From a virus, in the IMG/VR virus record IMGVR_UViG_3300023176_000258, positions 1 through 22,180 of that record: a stretch of 22,180 nucleotides of DNA. One strand, written 5' to 3'. The notes beneath the pieces were generated by a model. That model was not told where the DNA came from. It searched no databases and worked only from the letters and a program-made list of their open reading frames with translations. The translations under genes and the position numbers were made by a program. Position 1 is the stretch's first letter; every line of letters begins with the position of its first letter. This document shows positions 21 through 15,864 of this stretch, piece after piece.

Positions 21-46
21 GGGTGGTGTCCTTTGCTGATGAACTT

Positions 47-77
47 ATTATAGGGCAGAATGGGGTCAGATGACCCC
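47..77 (-). promoter_or_regulatory. Hairpin followed by a -10 box
   Basis: A perfect inverted repeat, GGGGTCA-TC-TGACCCC (62-77), is followed nine bases later on the minus strand by TATAAT (47-52). The hairpin contains the TGA stop codon of the upstream 73-residue gene. No good -35 is visible at 16-18 bases. The layout resembles the hairpin-promoter elements elsewhere in the window and probably separates the upstream gene from the gene starting at 20. There is no T-tract, so terminator activity is uncertain. Confidence 0.45.
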
Positions 78-287
78 TGCCTGTGCCAGTTCTTCTGCTG
101 GCACACGGGCAACGGTGAGGCGTTGCCATCCGCGAACCTCACGGATACCATTGACAACATCGTTCACCAGGCGCTCATGCTGACGCTCCATGCCCTTAGC
201 AGTCTTGCACTTGGGGCGTTGAGCATACAGGATGCTGGTGGTGCCATCGCTGTTGTCGATCTCAATGCGATAGTTGCTCTTGAGCAT
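66..287 (-). CDS. Small phage protein, 73 aa, unknown function
   Basis: Not recognised. The product is basic and soluble, with no membrane segment. It opens with a strand-rich stretch (MLKSNYRIEIDNSDGTTSIL) followed by a helix rich in charged residues. The ATG is preceded by AAGGGAA about nine bases upstream, which supports this start. It stands apart from the small-gene cluster upstream (about 80 bases of non-coding sequence between them). Its stop codon lies inside the hairpin at 62-77. Confidence 0.6.
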   Translation of the reverse strand: MLKSNYRIEIDNSDGTTSILYAQRPKCKTAKGMERQHERLVNDVVNGIREVRGWQRLTVARVPAEELAQAGVI

Positions 288-2467: not shown

Positions 2468-2473
2468 ACTGTT

Positions 2474-2508
2474 AGTATGGCACAAAAAAAGGGGTCTGTC
2501 AAGACCCC
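2474..2508 (-). terminator. Terminator with a promoter-like -35 in its loop
   Basis: On the minus strand the stem GGGGTC/GACCCC encloses a TTGACA loop and is followed by seven T residues, a clear intrinsic terminator for the 52-residue gene upstream. The loop TTGACA (2497-2502) is also followed, 17 bases on, by CATACT (2474-2479), a 4/6 match to a -10. If that promoter fires, transcription would start close to the ATG at 2467, giving a near-leaderless mRNA. No ribosome binding site is visible for that gene. Confidence 0.8.
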
Positions 2509-2517
2509 TGTGACAGT

Positions 2518-2676
2518 TCACTTACTGTCCATTTGTTTTAACTTTTGAACTAAAAGATCTGCTAATGCTTCCATTCTATCTGGATGTATAGCACGAATAC
2601 CAACATCATTCAAAGCAATTTGCATACTCTCTTGTTCTTGGGAAGACAGTTTCTTACCATTAGTCGGAAGAGTCAT
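2518..2676 (-). CDS. Small phage protein, 52 aa, unknown function
   Basis: Read directly from the sequence: MTLPTNGKKLSSQEQESMQI, then an amphipathic helix (DRMEALADLLVQKLKQM). Likely all-helical and possibly oligomeric. It is a single-gene unit: a -10 box lies just upstream and the terminator at 2484-2508 just downstream. The end of the gene (GACAGT) also forms an inverted repeat with ACTGTC beyond the stop (2512-2529). Confidence 0.65.
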   Translation of the reverse strand: MTLPTNGKKLSSQEQESMQIALNDVGIRAIHPDRMEALADLLVQKLKQMDSK

Positions 2677-5535: not shown

Positions 5536-6777
5536 CTATACCAGTGCGAGGGGAGGAATACCTTTCACGAAGATAGCATCAACCACATTCTGAAGGCGTT
5601 TGATTGTAGCAGCACCGTAGTTATTGTGGACAGGGACTGAAACAAATCCACAAGACTTACGGTAGAACTGACACTGACCAGGGGTAAGTTTGCCAGAGGC
5701 AATGTCAGCAGCATCGTTGCGATCAATACGAATCACACGACCGATAGTCTGTGCCATCTCAACAACATTCAAGTTGCGAAGAAGGATGCAGTGAGTCAAC
5801 CCAGGGACGTTGATACCTTCAGACAAAATAGAATAGTGGAAGACCACAAACTTCTTAGAAGGATCACTACCCCAAGCAGTCAGAGTGTTGAAAAACTCTT
5901 CACGGTTGACCTTACGATCATCGACATATGCACCGAACTTACTAGTAATATGTAGGACGTGATAGTCACGATCTTTGAGTTGCTGAATCATATCAGACTG
6001 CCCCAGCATACGCCCCAGGACGCGACTGGAAGGCGCTGCAACCAGCACCTTTGCTGCCTGGTTATCATCAAGGTTGTCAATGATGTTAGAGACGGTATCA
6101 GCGTCGATCTGAGCAGCACTGTCCTTAGTGCGGTCAGCATTGGTCTCAATGCCAACAACAACAGGAGGAATGATGCTACCGTTATTGATCAGTTCAGGTG
6201 CAGGAACGTTGCAGATAACATTACCAAACACAGTGGTGTTGTTCATCCCACGATCATGCCGACGTGATTGACGTGGTGTAGCAGTAAAGAAGAATGAACG
6301 ATCTGCAAAGTTAGAGCAAGCAGCAACAGGAACAAAGAATTGCTTAGTGCAAGCATTGTGCGCTTCGTCAAAGTAAGCCACGTCGATGTCAATACCAGCA
6401 TCAACAACACGACGTAATGAATGATAGGTAGTGAAGATAATGCAGGACTCATCGGCAGTACGGGCAACATTATTAAACAGAGCAATCTTCTCGGACTTAG
6501 TGCTGCTGAAGTAGTGAGTCTCACCGCTGTGGCAGTGAGCAACGTGGACAGAGTTGCTGTCGATCTGTTGCATAAACTCCTCGCACAGTTGATTAGCGAG
6601 AAGGATACGAGGAGCAACCACAACAATGGTTTGAGGACCGTCAGCGAGCAGACGCAGCGCGTGACGGATCATGATCATGGTCTTGCCACCGCCTGTGGGG
6701 ACAAGCACTTGACCCTTAGCAGCACTGCTCATAGAATCGAGAGCACGTTGCTGGTGGGGGCGGAGAGTGATGGTCAA
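5536..6777 (-). CDS. SF2 DEAH-box helicase, 413 aa
   Basis: This is an ATP-dependent nucleic-acid helicase of superfamily 2. Walker A is PTGGGKT (27-33), the DEAH box is in YFDEAHN (135-141), motif III is TAT (165-167) and motif VI is QTIGRVIR (343-350). Between them lie two RecA-like domains of normal length. The layout is that of the type III restriction/UvsW/RAD25-like group, so a role in unwinding branched DNA during replication, recombination or repair is likely; T4 UvsW is the closest functional model, though this protein is shorter. There is no nuclease domain. The start must be TTG: an in-frame TGA lies six codons upstream and the first ATG is codon 16. A -10 box (TATACT, 6801-6806) lies just upstream, giving a leader of about 18 bases. 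Confidence 0.88.
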   Translation of the reverse strand: MTITLRPHQQRALDSMSSAAKGQVLVPTGGGKTMIMIRHALRLLADGPQTIVVVAPRILLANQLCEEFMQQIDSNSVHVAHCHSGETHYFSSTKSEKIALFNNVARTADESCIIFTTYHSLRRVVDAGIDIDVAYFDEAHNACTKQFFVPVAACSNFADRSFFFTATPRQSRRHDRGMNNTTVFGNVICNVPAPELINNGSIIPPVVVGIETNADRTKDSAAQIDADTVSNIIDNLDDNQAAKVLVAAPSSRVLGRMLGQSDMIQQLKDRDYHVLHITSKFGAYVDDRKVNREEFFNTLTAWGSDPSKKFVVFHYSILSEGINVPGLTHCILLRNLNVVEMAQTIGRVIRIDRNDAADIASGKLTPGQCQFYRKSCGFVSVPVHNNYGAATIKRLQNVVDAIFVKGIPPLALV

Positions 6778-6800
6778 GTCGGTTTCGCTTCAATGCATAT

Positions 6801-6834
6801 AGTATAAACCCCCTGACGGCGAACCGTCAAGGGG
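6801..6834 (-). terminator. Terminator overlapping a TTGACG/TATACT promoter
   Basis: On the minus strand an 11-bp stem closed by a UUCG tetraloop (CCCCTTGACGG-TTCG-CCGTCAGGGGG) is followed by TTTAT, a terminator for the ParB-like gene. The same bases hold TTGACG (6825-6830) and, 18 bases on, TATACT (6801-6806), a promoter for the helicase. The G-U pair in the stem forms only in minus-strand RNA; plus-strand RNA would have an A-C mismatch there. A second small palindrome (GTCAGT-TT-ACTGAC on the plus strand, 6839-6852) lies between the stop codon and the terminator. Confidence 0.82.
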
Positions 6835-6855
6835 CTGTGTCAGTTTACTGACTGT

Positions 6856-7851
6856 CTATGCGTTTTCAGGTCTCTTGAACTTCTTAGAGATCTTTATAGC
6901 GTTTGCCATAACTGCATCTCCAATCTGATTACGAGGTCCAGCATCACGATACATAGCAGATTGACGATACTTGTCAAGAATGTTGAAGAAGATATATCGA
7001 TGTGCATTAGCATCAATGAAACCCTTTGAAAGAGTTGTCTGGTTCTCTACTTGATTGAGAACACTTGTTAGATACTTCCATAACAACTTCTCGGAACCAT
7101 TCTCTAAAACATCATCCATAAAGTGTGCCATAAGACAACATGCACGGTACATAACTCCCGTCATATATTTGTCTTTGTGGAAACCAAACATTTCCTTCCA
7201 CAAAATGTATCCAGACCATAGACGTTCCATGGTATCAGGATGATCCATCTTGTAGTCTGAAGTGGCAGCAATGAGAAACTGGTTGAATGATTTCAGTTCT
7301 ACTGCATCCTCTTCAGTAGATCCAAATCCATCAATATTCAAGTTAAGTTCTCTGAGAACTCTCTCTATCCAGAGTGATACTGGTTCATCAAATACTACAC
7401 CCGCACGAATCTCATCAACCTTGTTGAGTTTCTTACGTTGAGTATTCAGAGCATAAAAGATCTCTGCCTCAATCTTCTCACATTCCTCTAGAGTCGCATT
7501 TTCATCATGCTCATAAACAAATGCAGGGAACTTGACACCCTCTTTACCTGCTCCTGAGAGGAAATATAGAACTGCCTTGTGCTGCCCATCAATCAACCAG
7601 TCACCACCATTAGGTCCAAGTGACTTAGGACGACGTGCAACTACTGCAGGGACGAGAAGTTTCAGATCTAACTTCTTATACTTTTTGATAGAAAAGACGC
7701 TCAAAATACGCTGATAAAGCTTCGATACCTTCAGAAGTCCAGGATCGACATAGTATTCGATAATCAGTTCTTTTCCAATGTATCCGTGCTCAACGGATTT
7801 TACCAACTTGGTATTAGAAGCAAGCTGGTGGATGTAATTAAAGCTATCCAT
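6856..7851 (-). CDS. ParB-like protein with DGQH motif, 331 aa
   Basis: The N-terminal half resembles the ParB/sulfiredoxin-like fold found in plasmid and phage ParB-like nucleases and in DGQHR proteins. A strand pair around LLVPAVVARRPK (65-76) is followed by WLIDGQHKAVLY (85-96), whose DGQH matches the conserved D-G-x-H/R core of that fold. The C-terminal 200 residues are mostly helical and not assigned. Possible roles are CTP- or DNA-dependent binding, or DNA cleavage; the sequence does not decide between them. The start is well supported by AAGGAGA six bases upstream, and a consensus sigma70-type promoter lies about 70 bases further up. It is a single-gene unit ended by the terminator at 6806-6834. 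Confidence 0.7.
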   Translation of the reverse strand: MDSFNYIHQLASNTKLVKSVEHGYIGKELIIEYYVDPGLLKVSKLYQRILSVFSIKKYKKLDLKLLVPAVVARRPKSLGPNGGDWLIDGQHKAVLYFLSGAGKEGVKFPAFVYEHDENATLEECEKIEAEIFYALNTQRKKLNKVDEIRAGVVFDEPVSLWIERVLRELNLNIDGFGSTEEDAVELKSFNQFLIAATSDYKMDHPDTMERLWSGYILWKEMFGFHKDKYMTGVMYRACCLMAHFMDDVLENGSEKLLWKYLTSVLNQVENQTTLSKGFIDANAHRYIFFNILDKYRQSAMYRDAGPRNQIGDAVMANAIKISKKFKRPENA

Positions 7852-7927: not shown

Positions 7928-7961
7928 ATTATATAGGTTGATTAGAAATTTGTCAACCTAT
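7928..7961 (-). promoter_or_regulatory. Consensus sigma70-type promoter within an inverted repeat
   Basis: TTGACA (7951-7956), a 17-base spacer and TATAAT (7928-7933) match the bacterial consensus exactly. A 9-bp perfect inverted repeat (ATAGGTTGA ... TCAACCTAT on the plus strand, arms 7933-7941 and 7953-7961) spans the spacer, so the -35 lies in one arm and the other arm ends at the -10. The promoter overlaps the stop codon of the upstream metallopeptidase gene and gives the ParB-like gene a leader of about 70 bases. The repeat could bind a dimeric repressor or fold in RNA. Confidence 0.88.
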
Positions 7962-8461: not shown

Positions 8462-8614
8462 TCAGAACTTGTTTAGCATCTTAATAGTCTCAGGATCAAT
8501 GTTATCCTTGATTCCTACAGACCAATAATCGTTTTCATCTTCAAACGGATCAAACTCTTCTACTTCGGTGTACTTGTCAAACACGTCTTGTTCGTAGGCG
8601 AGATCGTCGTACAT
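8462..8614 (-). CDS. Very small acidic protein, 50 aa
   Basis: Read directly from the sequence: MYDDLAYEQDVFDKYTEVEE followed by more Asp/Glu/Phe residues. The ATG at 8614 is preceded by AAAGGAG. The in-frame ATG at 8638 would lie upstream of the expected transcription start (-10 at 8639-8644), so the shorter form is chosen. Acidic small proteins in this position can be DNA mimics or host-protein inhibitors, but nothing in the sequence proves that. Confidence 0.62.
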   Translation of the reverse strand: MYDDLAYEQDVFDKYTEVEEFDPFEDENDYWSVGIKDNIDPETIKMLNKF

Positions 8615-8638
8615 GTGCTCCTTTGGTTGAACTCTCAT

Positions 8639-8673
8639 ATAATAACCCCCCTCAACGCATCCGTCAAGGGGGG
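8639..8673 (-). terminator. Terminator overlapping a TTGACG/TATTAT promoter
   Basis: A 12-bp stem (CCCCCCTTGACG-GATG-CGTTGAGGGGGG) ends the giant fibre gene transcript. It is followed by TTATTATAT. Its G-U pairs form only in minus-strand RNA, so it is directional. The same bases carry TTGACG (8662-8667), a 17-base spacer and TATTAT (8639-8644), a promoter for the 50-residue gene at 8614. The stretch between the fibre stop codon and the stem contains GACAGT and CACA as in the elements near 2520 and 6845. Confidence 0.8.
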
Positions 8674-8698
8674 TGTGCCACTTTATTGAACTGTCACA

Positions 8699-11600
8699 TC
8701 AGACCTTCATAATGAAGACTAGTGAGACCCACTCAGGTTGGTTATCCCATGACAGTGTTGCTTGTGTGCTGTTTGAATCATAAACCTGACCAGTTGCACC
8801 GCTAGTTGATTGACCAGTACCAGAGATTTGCAGAGCATGGAAGTGATCATATGCATTATATGGTCCAAGTGAACCTCTACCCAGTGTGTTACCTGCAGAT
8901 CCAGAATAAGATCTTCTAGGATCAGTTGTACCAGAAAGAGCATGATAACCGTCACCATTAGAGTCGCCACCACTACCAGGACCACTTCTTAGTGTTCTGT
9001 TACCATTAATATCGTAGAATGGTGATTGATCAACAGCAGTATATCCTTCTGTTGTACCTTCAATTTCAATTCCACCAACTTCACCATAACCTTCACCAAA
9101 CTGAACATTTTCACCCGCAGCGTTAGCAATAGCAAGCGCTCCATCTTGACTACCACTAAAATCATGGTCGTGATTTAGAATCGTAGGTGACAGTCCGTGA
9201 GTGTGAGCAGGAATTTCTGGTCTGGTTAGTTCGTGACCACCAGAGATAAACTCTCTTGTTTGCTCATGAGCACCACCTGTTTGATTAGCACTCAGCATAC
9301 CTTTGACAAACTTATCTGTCATGTTTGGTGCAACTGTTGTCGTACCAAATCTGTTGTTATATGTACCACCATCACATAGAACATATCCATTTGGAATGTT
9401 AGAGTTAGTTCCAGACCACATAATAACTGCACCAACAGGTAGTGCTTGGTTCATAATATCATCACGAACTTCTGGTGAGAAGAGTGTACCAGCAGCCTGA
9501 GAGAAACCATTGTTTAGACTGAAGTTTCTGTAGACATTATTGGTGTTGGTTGGTTCCTTAACTCTGAAGAAATAGTTCTCATCAGTTTCACCTTGGAAAG
9601 ATGCATAGCATACATGAGTATTAGGAATTGAGATGCCACTATTTGTTCCACGGAAGAACATATCATCTTCTAGGTATAGATCAGATGACATTACAACAGT
9701 ATCACCGAACGCAGAAACATATCCAGGTGCAACATCGAATGAATAAACACCACCACCAAGTTCACTGATTCTTGCTCTTGGAGCATCTTGGAAGTATGCA
9801 ACTGATGGTTGTGTCAGTGCTCCAGAAGCACCAGAACGTGACTGATCGATCCACATAACAGGAGATCCATCAGACTTATCAATACCAACCAACCAATCAT
9901 TAGGACGTGTAGATCCTGCTTTGATGTAGAAGTTGGAGGTACGTGCAGAGTTTCTGTAGTAACCATTGATACCTAGTCTACCTTCAGTTGGTGTATCTCT
10001 ATCCTCAAAAGCATACAGACCACCAGTCTTTGTCATGCCTGTTTGATACCAGACACCATCAGTTTGACCAGCAGGATCAGGTAGGAAGATCCAAGATTGG
10101 TTGTTTGATGTAGCATCAGCACTCATCGCAGCAGATGCTTTGTGTGCAATATCACCAAAACTTTGACCATGAGCCCAGGTAACATCTACCAATAAACCAT
10201 CAGAACTTACCATGTTCTCAACGATGTCACCAGCACCAGCAGCGTGCATCGGTGGACGTGTAGTCAAAGACCAAAGTGTGGTGTCTTTTCTTAATGCTAG
10301 ATCAGTATCATAAGTTTCAAATGTGGTCTCACCACCAGATGTTTCAGTACCAACTGCTCTCAAACTTACGTTATTTGTAGAGAACAGATCATGAACACCA
10401 CGATAGTCACCAGTATTTCTTACTGAGAAACCATTACCTGCACCATAGAATGTAACCTTCTGAGTCTTAGTTCCAGCATCTTTAGGTGTGTTGAACTGAA
10501 CACCACCTAAGAACTTAGTTGGACCTCTAACAGATCCCTTCTGTCTAACAGATGCATCTTGGTCAGAGTTTTCAACAGTTAGTGAACCTTTGACAACTAG
10601 ATCAAATACATCATCTCCAGATGATGCACCTTCTTCATCACCAACAGGAATGTTATCCTCAGGTACAGCAGAAACCTCTAGAATTGCCTCATCAATAATC
10701 TCAATCGCACCAGTAACAGCATTAATCTTCTGGTTACCAACATATAGATCACCCTGAGAGTTCAGACCAGAATAGAATACAACACCAGCATCTTCTTTCT
10801 TAGCCTGTGATACAACAACCTCACGATCTGTCAGTTCACGTTGTTGCTTAGCAGGGAAAGCAGTTGAGTAGTTACCTGGACCATAACCAACATATTCAAA
10901 TGTATGGTTACCAGATCTGACAAGTGATGGTCTGCGAAGTTCAATCTCAATACCAACATCTTCAGTTCTACTTGAAGAACCACTTCTTAGATAACCAATA
11001 GGAAGGATTCTAGACTGATCTTCTCTACCTCTTCTTGCTGAACCTTCACGCTCTACAGTGATGTTTGAAATTGCAACAGAGGCATAGTTGTTATCCGTCA
11101 GGAAGGCAACTGCTGCCTCTCTGGTGATTGAATTAGTTCTAGAGTCAGAATAAACATAACCTTGGATTCTATGATCTGCAACTGACTTAGCAACTGGTGC
11201 ATTACTGACAGGATTATCAGCATCCAATGCAGGATATAGTTCAGCAGTGCTCTGACTAAACTTAAACTTCTTGAACCAGTTTTGTGAAATAGATCCACCA
11301 TCACCACGAACCATTCTGTCGTGATCAACCTGAACGTCTGCAAGTAACAGTGTTAGATAGTAGACACCATCTTGTACTCCAGGAATAAAGTCCTGAACCT
11401 CAGTGATGTCATAGATGTAATAAGATCTTTCATATTGATTATAATCTCCAGGATTACCACCATCCCATGTCTCAGGTACATATCCATCAGGATTAGTTCT
11501 CAGTTTCAGAACATAACCAAGGAATGGTGGGCGAGCAGACTTGAACTCTTTGGGTAGAACATATCTGAATCTGTATGTTCTGTCGTAGTTTGTTCTAACG

Positions 11601-14600
11601 TCTCTTTGACGATTTAGTTTTGCTGGTTGTGTTGCTTTAGGTGCTTGATCACCTTGGAAGTCTCCTTCACTCAAAATAGCATCAATAACCTGGTTATTTG
11701 CTGTCTTAGTAGTTACAATCCAGTTACCAGCAGTTCCTGTTGCAGTGTCTACAGGATTAGAAGCACCCAGTGGATTCAAAGGATCATATTGTAGTGGGCA
11801 TCTTGTGATCCAAGGTGCAGCAGACCACTGACCAGAGTTAGCAAATACCTTTACTTTTCCTGCTGCAGAGATAGCACCTAGAGTAATCAGGTTTCTATCA
11901 TTATTTGCATCATCAAATGTAGCAACAATTTTGAATCTTGATGTGCTAGTTGGATATGCATAATAGAACTGAGTTTGAATCAGAGGACCACTCGACAGAG
12001 TTGGCATTGTGTCTGTCGCAGAAGATTTCACGAAGAAGATAGGTTGACCCTTATCAAATCCATGAGGAATCTCTGTTGGTGATATAGCAGATGCATCATT
12101 AACAGTAATAAACTCATTAGAGTTTGTACTGGTAATGAACTCAAATGATGTAGGAGTTGGTCTCATATCTGAAGTCTTTTGAATGACTTTCAGTTCACCA
12201 GTTGCTGTAATTGCACCCTGTGCAGTAACAGTCTTAGGTGGGTTATCAGTACGAACGTCAATAGGAGTACCTGCTCTTGCTTCTTCAATAGTTTTAGCAA
12301 GTTTGAATTGACTATCTCTATTTGAAATAGTTCCAGATGGACCATTCCATCCCTGACCAGAACTTGTCCATCTACCACCATTTTCTGAGATGATATAGTA
12401 TGTGGTGTTAGGTTCAATACCATCAGGTAAGTAACCCATCTCAGACTCAATTCTGACTGGTGTACCAGTTCTCCACTGGTGAGTTTGACCACCAGACAGA
12501 GTACAAACGTCAGTATTTGGATTGACCGTAAATACTTTCTCTTGTACGTGTTCAAATGAACCAGAACCAGTTACGTTAGTTGCTAGTTGTACATTTTTGA
12601 CAACAGTAATAGCACCCAGAGTCATCTCAACATCTAGGTCTTCATCTTGCTTACCACCTAAAACATACTTATTTTCAAACAGATAAGTTGGTGTCTTATC
12701 TGGCGTCTTAGCATTGAATAGATGCAGTTTAGTTCTTGTTGAAGAGGTATTAGATGACTGTACCTTTTGTACGTCGAATGGATACCAGGATAGTTCATCA
12801 ATGGCAGCCTCATCAATCTTCTTGGGAGGAATAATATGAGTGATCTTACCAAACTTATCTTGTGGGAAAGCCTTTTCACGGAATCCAATTGCTCTCAGAG
12901 CTGTGTTACCAAAGTTAGAGTTCGAGTTGGTAATCGAAATGTCACCACCATCTTCAATCAAGAAGTGATCACAGAATCCAACAGCGAAGACAGAAACTGC
13001 CTGAATCAAACTCTCATTTGTGATATGAACGTGGAATGTTCTCCAGTCATCACGATAAAGTGCAGATCCTTCACTGTGTAGTGTAGCAACTGTGGTTGAT
13101 ACTTGGTCAGATGGTAGAGTGAATCCTACCTGAGATTCTGTTAACCATGCTGGATCTTTCAGTGGGTTGCCATCAGCATCAGTTCTATTCTGGATCTGAT
13201 ACATGTAACGAACGAACGCTCTATCATCCTTCTGGAGAGAAACACCCGTGTACTGTGCAACAACCATTGACTTGAATCCAGTTGCCTTGGATCCATCAGC
13301 CAACATACCACAAATACCAAAGACTGAACGAATCGAACAGTTGAAGATATATGGTGATGCAGAGTCAACAGTATCAATGTCAGCGATCAGTGTTGCTGCT
13401 GCTGTAGTATTGAAACTATAGGTCTGTGGAATTGTAGATGCAGACAGAACCTTCTCACACTGAATTGTGTTAGCGTTGATAACACTAGTAACAAAGACAG
13501 TGCCATTAATATCACCACCAAATCCAGAACCTTGAGAAGTTTCGGTTACATCCAGGTCTTTCAGAGAGACAATCTGGTTCTTGAATAGACCATGTGATCC
13601 TCTTGTAGTAACACTAATTCTATATCTCGATCCTTGAATCAAATTGATAGCAATAGACTCAATTCTGTTGTCTACGTTCAGAGGACCAACAATTCTGTTC
13701 TCCTGCTGCCTTGCTTCAATCTCACCTTCAGCATCAGTGATAGGATCAATAATGTCAATGTTAGAGAAACCTCTAGCAACCTTTGCATAGTACAATCCAA
13801 GATCATTCAGTTTGGTGATCTTAGTATTTGCTTCATGAAGTGCAGGTGCTGTTGTACCTAACTGGTTTCTATATACAGTGATTCTGCTCTCTTCAGGATA
13901 TACTTTCTTGACTCTGACAACCTCTCTCGATGAGGCAGTAGCGTTATCAATCAGCAGGTAATCTCCCATGAAGATTCTTGCCTGCGAACCACTGTTGATC
14001 TTGTTTAGATAAATGTCAGTAGCAAGAGGATCATTAACTGCTTGAGTACAAACAATGTCAGCAACTGACATTCCATTGGCATACTCAAAACCAGTGATCT
14101 TATGGTGCGATCCAAGACCAGTTGTACCACTAGTTGTGAGTGGTTGCTGAGTTAGATTCCACTCATAGTTTGCAGAATACTTAGAGAACTTGACTGTATC
14201 TGCAAAGTCATTAGTTGCATATCTATAGATACCACCAGTTTGAGTTGGAATAGCATCAAAGATAGAGAACTGCCAGAAGTAACAAGCACCAGTAACTCTA
14301 AAGAACGCTGCTCTTCCTAGAGTCTGATTAAATGCTTCTTCTACATATGCTCCAGGTTGTTTATAATCAGACGTACCATATCCTACATTATTGGAGTCAA
14401 GATACTCCGCATACATTGGATCAGGAACATAACGAGGTCTGATTCTTGTCTTACGAAGGTCACTACCAATGATGGAAGTACCTCTAGGGATGACTACACC
14501 ACCCTCAGTAGAGTTGAACTTATATAAATCGTTGGCATCATCAAAGATATTAAAGTTAGATCCATCCGTCAGTTGAGGAACAATCGGTTGACCACTAATT

Positions 14601-14911
14601 GTTTGGTCAGTGTTCCAATAGTTTGCATCTTTATCCCAATCTACAAAGAATCCAGGTCTGTTGTCAATCCAGTGATCTCCTGGTGACAATAGAATTGAAT
14701 ATTGATCGTACTTATCATTTCCCTTATCTGGACCAGCAACGTATGAAAATCTTGCGACTTCAAGTAGTGCTCTCTGAATAGTTTTGAAGGGTCTTGTTGG
14801 TGAGTTACCTCTGTTAGAAATCAGGTCTGATGCGTTGAACTCACTAGGATCAACATAGAGAAAACGACCTTCAGTAGAACTAATCAGGTTTGTTAGGCGA
14901 GTGAGTGACAT
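8699..14911 (-). CDS. Giant fibre-like virion protein with tail-collar domain, 2070 aa
   Basis: The product is a virion structural protein, probably a tail fibre or baseplate-associated fibre of the T4-like cyanophage tail. Near the N-terminus, GRFLYVDPSEFNASD and PFKTIQRALLEVARFSY (roughly residues 15-60) resemble the start of phage pectate-lyase-like beta-helix fibre proteins. The long middle is beta-rich and repetitive in composition (Gly, Ser, Thr, Asn). From about residue 1820, LPVGAVIMWSG and PNGYVLCDGG begin a phage tail-collar domain as in T4 gp12 short tail fibres. The last 200 residues contain HTHG, HDHDF and HFHAL, His-x-His motifs like those that bind metal in T4 fibre tips. The start at 14911 follows a late promoter (14944-14951) and AAAGAG; the frame opens 16 codons earlier but those lie in the promoter. 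Host recognition is the likely job. Confidence 0.85.
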   Translation of the reverse strand: MSLTRLTNLISSTEGRFLYVDPSEFNASDLISNRGNSPTRPFKTIQRALLEVARFSYVAGPDKGNDKYDQYSILLSPGDHWIDNRPGFFVDWDKDANYWNTDQTISGQPIVPQLTDGSNFNIFDDANDLYKFNSTEGGVVIPRGTSIIGSDLRKTRIRPRYVPDPMYAEYLDSNNVGYGTSDYKQPGAYVEEAFNQTLGRAAFFRVTGACYFWQFSIFDAIPTQTGGIYRYATNDFADTVKFSKYSANYEWNLTQQPLTTSGTTGLGSHHKITGFEYANGMSVADIVCTQAVNDPLATDIYLNKINSGSQARIFMGDYLLIDNATASSREVVRVKKVYPEESRITVYRNQLGTTAPALHEANTKITKLNDLGLYYAKVARGFSNIDIIDPITDAEGEIEARQQENRIVGPLNVDNRIESIAINLIQGSRYRISVTTRGSHGLFKNQIVSLKDLDVTETSQGSGFGGDINGTVFVTSVINANTIQCEKVLSASTIPQTYSFNTTAAATLIADIDTVDSASPYIFNCSIRSVFGICGMLADGSKATGFKSMVVAQYTGVSLQKDDRAFVRYMYQIQNRTDADGNPLKDPAWLTESQVGFTLPSDQVSTTVATLHSEGSALYRDDWRTFHVHITNESLIQAVSVFAVGFCDHFLIEDGGDISITNSNSNFGNTALRAIGFREKAFPQDKFGKITHIIPPKKIDEAAIDELSWYPFDVQKVQSSNTSSTRTKLHLFNAKTPDKTPTYLFENKYVLGGKQDEDLDVEMTLGAITVVKNVQLATNVTGSGSFEHVQEKVFTVNPNTDVCTLSGGQTHQWRTGTPVRIESEMGYLPDGIEPNTTYYIISENGGRWTSSGQGWNGPSGTISNRDSQFKLAKTIEEARAGTPIDVRTDNPPKTVTAQGAITATGELKVIQKTSDMRPTPTSFEFITSTNSNEFITVNDASAISPTEIPHGFDKGQPIFFVKSSATDTMPTLSSGPLIQTQFYYAYPTSTSRFKIVATFDDANNDRNLITLGAISAAGKVKVFANSGQWSAAPWITRCPLQYDPLNPLGASNPVDTATGTAGNWIVTTKTANNQVIDAILSEGDFQGDQAPKATQPAKLNRQRDVRTNYDRTYRFRYVLPKEFKSARPPFLGYVLKLRTNPDGYVPETWDGGNPGDYNQYERSYYIYDITEVQDFIPGVQDGVYYLTLLLADVQVDHDRMVRGDGGSISQNWFKKFKFSQSTAELYPALDADNPVSNAPVAKSVADHRIQGYVYSDSRTNSITREAAVAFLTDNNYASVAISNITVEREGSARRGREDQSRILPIGYLRSGSSSRTEDVGIEIELRRPSLVRSGNHTFEYVGYGPGNYSTAFPAKQQRELTDREVVVSQAKKEDAGVVFYSGLNSQGDLYVGNQKINAVTGAIEIIDEAILEVSAVPEDNIPVGDEEGASSGDDVFDLVVKGSLTVENSDQDASVRQKGSVRGPTKFLGGVQFNTPKDAGTKTQKVTFYGAGNGFSVRNTGDYRGVHDLFSTNNVSLRAVGTETSGGETTFETYDTDLALRKDTTLWSLTTRPPMHAAGAGDIVENMVSSDGLLVDVTWAHGQSFGDIAHKASAAMSADATSNNQSWIFLPDPAGQTDGVWYQTGMTKTGGLYAFEDRDTPTEGRLGINGYYRNSARTSNFYIKAGSTRPNDWLVGIDKSDGSPVMWIDQSRSGASGALTQPSVAYFQDAPRARISELGGGVYSFDVAPGYVSAFGDTVVMSSDLYLEDDMFFRGTNSGISIPNTHVCYASFQGETDENYFFRVKEPTNTNNVYRNFSLNNGFSQAAGTLFSPEVRDDIMNQALPVGAVIMWSGTNSNIPNGYVLCDGGTYNNRFGTTTVAPNMTDKFVKGMLSANQTGGAHEQTREFISGGHELTRPEIPAHTHGLSPTILNHDHDFSGSQDGALAIANAAGENVQFGEGYGEVGGIEIEGTTEGYTAVDQSPFYDINGNRTLRSGPGSGGDSNGDGYHALSGTTDPRRSYSGSAGNTLGRGSLGPYNAYDHFHALQISGTGQSTSGATGQVYDSNSTQATLSWDNQPEWVSLVFIMKV

Positions 14912-14943
14912 GCTCTTTATTAGACATACGGATCCTATATGCA

Positions 14944-14951
14944 TATTTATA
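14944..14951 (-). promoter_or_regulatory. T4-type late promoter for the fibre gene
   Basis: TATAAATA on the minus strand is an exact match to the T4 late promoter -10 element, used by the phage gp55 sigma factor with no -35. It lies directly after the terminator T-rich tail and about 33 bases before the fibre start, so virion fibre expression is late and independent of the tRNA unit. Confidence 0.85.
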
Positions 14952-14981
14952 AACAACAAGACCCTCCCGAAGGAGGGTCTT
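14948..14981 (-). terminator. Intrinsic terminator after the tRNA-Thr gene
   Basis: A 10-bp stem with a UUCG loop (AAGACCCTCC-TTCG-GGAGGGTCTT) is followed by TGTTGTTTAT on the minus strand. It ends the unit containing the 59-residue gene, tRNA-Leu, HNH gene and tRNA-Thr, and its tail abuts the late promoter of the fibre gene. Confidence 0.85.
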
Positions 14982-15022: not shown

Positions 15023-15093
15023 AGCCCTATGACGGAATTGAACCATCCTCTGCAGTTTACAAAACTGCTGCATCACCACAATGCTTATAGGGC
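15023..15093 (-). tRNA. trnT: tRNA-Thr (anticodon UGU)
   Basis: A 71-base cloverleaf is visible on the minus strand: acceptor GCCCTAT/ATAGGGC (7 bp), D stem GCAT/ATGC, anticodon stem GCAGT/ACTGC with loop TTTGTAA (anticodon TGT, reading ACA), T stem GATGG/CCGTC with loop TTCAATT, and discriminator T. CCA is not encoded. Position 8 is A instead of the nearly universal U, and position 14 is U instead of A, so the usual 8-14 pair appears swapped. The first nine bases are also the last three codons of the HNH gene. Confidence 0.88.
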
Positions 15094-15495
15094 GTGTCTG
15101 TGATAGTCTTGACGTGCTCTCTCACGTCTTTGTACTCTACCGTTACCTTTATTCTTTGCTCTGTATGTAGGAGTTTGGGAATGGCAGTTTGGGCAGATAA
15201 ACCTGAGATTTTCAGGACTATCATTATAGGGGTTTCCATCAATATGGTCAACCTCTAAACTGATTGGGTTATTGTTCCATTCAGTAATCCCACAGCACGA
15301 ACATTTATAACCGTGTGTATCTGTGAGATATTCTCTCAGTGCTATTTTACCAGGCTTTTTGCCTCCAGTCAACCACTCATCAATGCGTTGTTTCTTTTGA
15401 AACTCTTGTTGACAAGTATTAGAGCAATACTTACCAGTTTTATTTGCTGGATTGTATTTAAACTCTGTTGAGCAATGAGAGCATTTACCTAACAT
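15085..15495 (-). CDS. HNH homing-type endonuclease between two tRNA genes, 136 aa
   Basis: This is a free-standing DNA endonuclease of the HNH family. The N-terminus has a zinc ribbon (GKCSHC and KYCSNTC, residues about 3-25). The C-terminal HNH domain has CSCC, EVDHIDGNPYNDSPENLRF (His of VDH, Asn of ENLRF) and CPNCHSQTPTYR, in the normal order and spacing. It is preceded by AAAAAGG six bases before the ATG at 15495, and by a late promoter. The frame is open upstream to 15582, but that would extend into tRNA-Leu, so the start at 15495 is used. The gene lies between tRNA-Leu and tRNA-Thr, a common site for phage homing endonucleases. Its stop codon lies inside tRNA-Thr. Confidence 0.88.
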   Translation of the reverse strand: MLGKCSHCSTEFKYNPANKTGKYCSNTCQQEFQKKQRIDEWLTGGKKPGKIALREYLTDTHGYKCSCCGITEWNNNPISLEVDHIDGNPYNDSPENLRFICPNCHSQTPTYRAKNKGNGRVQRRERARQDYHRHAL

Positions 15496-15537
15496 AGTAG
15501 ACCTTTTTATTTTATTTATAAGGTCTACTAGGTTAGG
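15488..15537 (-). promoter_or_regulatory. RBS-sequestering inverted repeat with a late promoter in the loop
   Basis: Arms 15488-15505 and 15520-15537 are 18 bases with one mismatch, separated by 14 bases. On the minus strand the downstream arm contains the ribosome binding site (AAGG) and the start codon ATG of the HNH gene. The spacer and arm edge hold TATAAATA (15513-15520), an exact T4 late promoter. A transcript that reads through from tRNA-Leu contains both arms and should hide the start; a late transcript begins near 15507, lacks the first arm and leaves the start open. Confidence 0.82.
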
Positions 15538-15540
15538 CAA

Positions 15541-15834: not shown

Positions 15835-15864
15835 ATTATACCACGCCTTTGGGTGGCGTGTCAA
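15835..15864 (-). promoter_or_regulatory. Sigma70-type promoter with hairpin in the spacer
   Basis: TTGACA (15859-15864), an 18-base spacer and TATAAT (15835-15840) precede the 59-residue gene. The spacer contains a 6-bp hairpin (CACGCC-ACCCAAA-GGCGTG) whose 5' arm begins in the -35. It has no clean T-tract, so it may be a weak terminator after the spike gene or a regulator site. This promoter probably drives the small gene, both tRNAs and the sequestered HNH gene early in infection. Confidence 0.82.

Follow-up and report, generated by a model that had tools for sequence, protein, structure and literature searches.

The closest described counterparts of the element analysed here are the promoter-early stem-loops (PeSLs), which were reportedly described by Arbiol in 2010 and by Comeau in 2014 from the phage pairs RB49/phi1, T4/PST, and KVP40/nt-1. 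Mini-circles between neighbouring PeSL copies have been reported for RB49/phi1. A cyanophage paper that raises PeSLs gives S-PM2 as being without a high PeSL density and doubts their action there. PeSLs of T4-like phages are also cited in PMC4503421, and predicted sigma70-like early promoters are described for the cyanomyoviruses S-PM2 and Syn9 in another publication (PMC2984593).

The window, that is, the whole stretch of DNA analysed, is an IMG/VR record consisting of a 22,180-base fragment. According to megablast, it belongs to a T4-like cyanomyovirus of the Kyanoviridae, and its nearest named relative is Synechococcus phage S-BM3, with 78.6% identity over 29% of the window. The minus strand carries most of its genes, and all four copies of a cassette of about 60 bases lie on it (Table 1). 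This cassette is probably a modular gene junction of T4-like cyanophages, combining a terminator and an early promoter. Its parts would be a two-part upstream palindrome, a hairpin acting as intrinsic terminator, and an early promoter of the host sigma70 type with the -35 inside the hairpin. Most likely, it would end the incoming transcript and start that of the next gene through unmodified host RNA polymerase, which would make a gene plus its cassette a self-contained transcription unit. Recombination between copies would then insert, delete, or replace genes in hyperplastic regions; homologous recombination is proposed because many similar copies share one orientation.

Table 1. Cassettes of the window and their parts, with positions counted from the first base of the window
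Feature	Position	Strand	Remarks
Cassette A, complete 60-nt unit	2470..2529	-	between 52-aa ORF (2518-2676) and phrog_455/DUF6267 gene (start ~2467)
Cassette A, layout		-	GACAGT aagtg AACTGTCACA GGGGTCTTGACAGACCCC TTTTTTT GTG CCATACT
Cassette A, upstream palindromic element GACAGTAAGTGAACTGTCACA	2509..2529	-	from sequence and conserved columns
Cassette A, hairpin AGGGGTCTTGACAGACCCCT, then T-run (about T6-T7)	2490..2509	-	predicted intrinsic terminator; pairs covary across phages
Cassette A, -35 TTGACA	2497-2502	-	in hairpin loop and 3' arm
Cassette A, -10 CATACT	2474..2479	-	17 nt after -35; TG in front (extended -10)
Cassette B	6797..6856	-	between phrog_2558 gene (6856-7851) and DNA helicase gene (5536-6777)
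Cassette B, layout		-	GACAGT cagta AACTGACACA GCCCCTTGACGGttcgCCGTCAGGGGG TT TATACT
Cassette B, hairpin	6807..6836	-	13 pairs, UUCG loop; -35 TTGACG (6825-6830) in 5' arm
Cassette B, -10 TATACT	6801-6806	-	
Cassette C	8637..8695	-	between tail fibre gene (8699-14959) and 50-aa ORF (~8462-8614)
Cassette C, layout		-	GACAGT tcaata AAGTGGCACA CCCCCCTTGACGgatgCGTTGAGGGGGG T TATTAT
Cassette C, hairpin	8645..8674	-	13 pairs including G-U; -35 TTGACG at 8662-8667
Cassette C, -10 TATTAT	8639-8644	-	
Fourth cassette	45..104	-	palindrome GTGCCAGcagaagaACTGGCAC; model match at 45-102: R1 26.8 bits, independent profile 13.8 bits
Fourth cassette, hairpin GGGGTCatctGACCCC	62-77	-	fold z -5.2
Fourth cassette, -10 TGCCCTATAAT	47-52	-	without clear -35

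A sequence-only reading had proposed a layout common to three minus-strand gaps (2474-2529, 6801-6857, 8639-8697), and all three elements are indeed present on that strand at the places given. Its interpretation is supported as largely correct, although it overlooked that A has an extended -10, that the upstream gene stops inside A, and that there is a fourth copy. Across the family, the consensus order is an imperfect bipartite palindrome, GACAGT-N5/6-AA[C/G]TG[G/T]CACA, followed by a GC-rich hairpin over the -35 and then, at fixed spacing, a -10 that reads TGCTATACT or TGCCATACT. The most conserved columns include GACAGT, AA[C/G]TG[G/T]CACA after the 5-6 free bases, and the -10. The -35 occurs as TTGACA, TTGGCA, or TAGGCA in the hairpin loop or arm, the TTGACA form being absent in several copies, and a T-run follows the hairpin in many copies, not in all. 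Hairpin A differs in sequence from hairpins B and C; the likeness among the three cassettes is greatest in the upstream element and in the -10 with its fixed spacing. In each, the -35 and -10 are 17-18 nt apart.

The copies were scored with R1, a covariance model from ten cassettes, and with an independent profile, which was trained on other phages' cassettes and contains no window or S-BM3 sequences. Cassette A, a member of the R1 training set, reaches 82 bits with R1 and 59.6 bits with the independent profile, and it is 88% identical to cassettes of S-CREM1, S-CAM3, and ACG-2014h. Cassette B gives E=0.003 with R1 and a borderline 9.9 bits with the profile, and cassette C, which has an ortholog in S-BM3 at 15350, gives E=0.058 and 14.6 bits. 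The four cassettes take the top four independent-profile scores of the window. Of these, A, C, and the fourth copy outscore all 100 shuffled windows, whereas B is just below the best shuffled score (10.7 bits). An R1 match at 1219-1277 lies within coding sequence and was taken as chance. Sigma70-like promoters with the -35 overlapping a GC-rich hairpin number five in the window, compared with 0.63 per shuffled window (maximum 2).

In the proposed module, the palindrome would often overlap or closely trail the stop codon of the upstream gene. The TGA stop (2518-2520) of the ORF upstream of cassette A falls within the palindromic element, an ORF at 66-287 terminates within the fourth cassette, and in many ACG-2014f copies there is an overlap with the stop codon of the upstream gene. 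A role of the cassette in supplying stop codons in all three frames was rejected, as this is true of just 2 of 24 copies (first 35 nt). On the downstream side, the phrog_455/DUF6267 gene has its start codon just 6 nt past the -10 of cassette A (2465-2479), as it does in S-CREM1 (L122), and this gap suggests a leaderless transcript. In ACG-2014f, the shared sequence continues via the leader and its ribosome site to the next ATG.

Two further promoters, at 7928-7961 and 15835-15864, had been named as also having the -35 within an inverted repeat. Both are perfect TTGACA/TATAAT promoters accompanied by inverted repeats, and as -35/-10 pairs they are real, but they carry no upstream element, give no profile match, and were not accepted as members of the family. 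The placement of the -35 holds at 7928-7956, where the repeat is AT-rich, but not at 15835-15864, where only the last two -35 bases are in the hairpin, which lies in the spacer, as in some RB49 repeats. Within 15085-15539, an HNH endonuclease gene, 94% identical to one in phage DSL-LC03, is located between tRNA-Thr and tRNA-Leu, and the DNA alignment to the relative L108 is interrupted at this gene. A long inverted repeat (~15490-15539) includes the probable ATG of the gene (15493-15495) in its 3' arm and has TATAAATA, a T4-type late promoter, in its loop. This arrangement is reminiscent of the autoregulatory hairpin of I-TevI.

Since the record comprises only 22,180 bases, the search of whole phage genomes for cassettes was carried out in relatives. 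The suggestion of a dispersed cassette was borne out: cassette A matches 178 phage records, in as many as six places in one genome, and the gene junctions that carry a copy vary from phage to phage. Further copies came to light both in the window, where the fourth was found, and with R1 in 24 of 24 cyanophage records tested. In ten regions from the searches with A and B, the genes on either side are not the same in every phage; the element precedes the helicase in S-CAM3, S-H9-1, and Sf-CH11, and unrelated small genes in S-CREM1, MA01, S-H34, S-RIM2, ACG-2014h, and ACG-2014f. R1 has 33 matches in ACG-2014f C16 and 16 each in MA01 and S-H34, and a profile has 38 in C16, all 38 on one strand and mostly in intergenic gaps. 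As 33 of these 38 lie between 27 and 58 kb, C16 holds many dispersed copies in its hyperplastic region. S-BM3 and Syn9 have few copies; on the minus strand of S-BM3 (OQ319121.1), promoter-hairpin overlaps or weak cassette matches occur at 14686-14705, 35923, 41521, 51510, 74886, and 88392, some of them without the upstream element.

A strict pattern occurs in at least 120 IMG/VR contigs, and a slightly looser one in 9 contigs among about 85,000 prokaryote species genomes, for which our own chance estimate is about 13. A looser pattern of the upstream element has 21 scattered matches in 291 cyanobacterial genomes, compared with about 5 by our own estimate. With the prokaryote count near chance and the cyanobacterial matches scattered, a host origin of the cassette was rejected. 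A hairpin pattern with 13 unspecified bases was too loose, as it pulled in unrelated contigs, and a comparison with Rfam covariance models returned no family match, only tRNAs and chance matches.

The hairpin shows compensatory changes in four of six stem pairs, with 96.7% of the cells paired. At the helicase junction, where each of the 21 loci examined has the cassette or, at a minimum, its upstream element, the stems diverge widely, as in GGGGTC/GACCCC versus CCCCTC/GAGGGG. Fold z-scores on the minus strand are -2.8 for A, -6.0 for B, and -4.5 for C. Hairpins B and C are predicted to be more stable as minus-strand RNA (MFE -29.5 and -27.9) than on the other strand (-23.2 and -21.0), because G-U pairs keep them closed, and this preference is what would be predicted for a terminator of leftward transcripts. 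The T tracts are short in B and C. Many C16 copies have no convincing hairpin or T-run, so termination cannot be universal. The two arms of the upstream palindrome do not clearly covary, for which reason it was rejected as an RNA stem, and a DNA site is indicated instead. The anatomy and the covariation give good support to the predicted combined role as terminator and promoter; that the cassettes drive and end transcription, that they act early, and that the upstream element is regulatory is inferred.

Gene exchange can be followed in the relatives. The helicase block of L108 is 95% identical to that of the window, and the homology is lost precisely at 6857, where cassette B has its upstream edge. 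Upstream of it, the window has a gene for 331 aa (phrog_2558) and L108 a different one for 356 aa, and the two have no DNA alignment. The homology breaks again at 8682, inside cassette C, where L108 carries an extra 81-codon ORF. In about half of 45 ACG-2014f records, homology to a reference piece ends at a cassette. Among eight ACG-2014f isolates, comparison with C16 yielded 17 distinct insertions, deletions, or replacements. Their ends fall in a cassette or leader in 25 of 34 cases, against 7.0 expected from random shifts, and both ends are in cassettes in 11 of the 17 events, against 1.5 expected; none of 2000 shifts reaches 25 ends or 11 such pairs, the control covering the cassettes and leaders of both genomes and its null not being restricted to intergenic DNA. 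About half of the intergenic DNA in the ACG-2014f region is cassette sequence, so some of the coincidence comes simply from breaks sparing genes. With a 15-base margin, an earlier strict test was significant when set against all positions, though not against intergenic DNA; it was redone with the leaders because the margin ignored alignments running through shared leaders.

Flanking repeats of 39-81 bases occur, and of the seven events whose flanking repeats measure at least 30 bases, five have both ends at cassettes. Where C16 has a cassette, a gene block, and a second cassette, other isolates have a single cassette that agrees with the left copy on its left flank and with the right copy on its right flank, most clearly in events 1, 2, and 4. 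Such mosaics are the footprint expected of homologous recombination, and together with the flanking repeats they are independent evidence of recombination. At the level of compared genomes, gene exchange through recombination at cassettes is thereby demonstrated, as are the family, its spread, the covariation of its hairpin, the coincidence of breakpoints with cassettes, and the mosaic copies. Two other isolate indels do not fit the cassette model; they are flanked by direct repeats of about 41-44 bases (L182 17497-17537 and 27796-27839), possibly other small repeats used for recombination.

Several other readings of these data were weighed. The cassettes could form nothing but a conserved class of early promoters, kept alike by the demands of one regulator and the host RNA polymerase, in which case the hairpins and the recombination would be side effects. 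Conservation is highest in the upstream element and in the -10 with its fixed spacing, and the hairpin is degraded in many ACG-2014f copies, both of which would fit such a class; yet the covarying stem pairs, the better folding of B and C as sense RNA, and the exchange by homology seen in the mosaic copies and flanking repeats render it clearly unlikely. It is very improbable that the palindrome is a site-specific recombination site, as in integrons, with the promoter riding along. Its position at gene boundaries, in one orientation and with gene blocks between sites, would be in keeping with that, but the crossovers occur at varied places within and just downstream of the cassette, as expected for homologous recombination rather than for a fixed cut.

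More room must be left for the palindrome serving mainly to bind a regulator, from host or phage, that would switch the cassette genes jointly, which is compatible with the modular junction and is a real, if lesser, possibility. Two conserved blocks separated by a variable spacer of 5-6 nt, at a fixed distance from the -10, suggest such a site, and so does the variation of the arms without clear covariation, which is typical of a site in DNA and not of an RNA stem. Against it stand the strict matches in prokaryote genomes, which are near chance, and the looser cyanobacterial search, whose scattered matches are somewhat above the estimate. A more specific version, in which the cassette is a separately evolved, family-wide junction module and the palindrome the site of a regulator acting as phage gene expression begins or ahead of it, is rather doubtful and is put forward tentatively. 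If a regulator does read the palindrome, any gene placed between two cassettes would enter a coordinated early regulon.

The gene content of cyanophage hyperplastic regions turns over fast, and a modular junction that is repeated and bears the footprints of recombination would offer a concrete mechanism for gene gain and loss in these very abundant ocean viruses. In addition, the consensus can be used to annotate candidate early promoters and transcript ends in cyanophage genomes.

Among known systems, the predicted promoters of S-PM2 and Syn9 resemble the cassette in being of the sigma70 type, in lying upstream of early genes, and in being thought to be used by unmodified host polymerase; they differ in that they are single sites, the available portion of the publication mentioning no repeated cassette with a terminator and palindrome (PMC2984593). 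The halovirus HF2, also a tailed virus, has dispersed intergenic repeats of 58 and 29 bp with promoter activity, although its promoters are archaeal, the virus is unrelated, and the abstract gives no terminator hairpin or recombination footprint (PMC8707807). The likeness to PeSLs is that both are small, pair a stem-loop with a sigma70-like early promoter, and are dispersed in hyperplastic regions where genes are exchanged. Repeats recovered independently here from RB49, which to judge from their position and make-up are probably the published PeSLs, extend from the promoter, past the ribosome site, as far as the ATG, like the ACG-2014f cassettes. In sequence, the cyanophage cassette is unrelated to them: neither R1 nor the profile has a match in RB49, T4 has one weak match with R1, and with the layout also different, descent from RB49-type PeSLs is not apparent. 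In the aligned RB49 copies, the stem-loop is in the -35/-10 spacer, over the -10, or separate as an upstream terminator, whereas the stem-loop of the cyanophage cassette covers part of the promoter at the -35 and has a 21-nt bipartite palindrome in front. On these sequence grounds, the cassette is best called a cyanophage variant of the PeSL, with its own sequence, layout, and upstream element.
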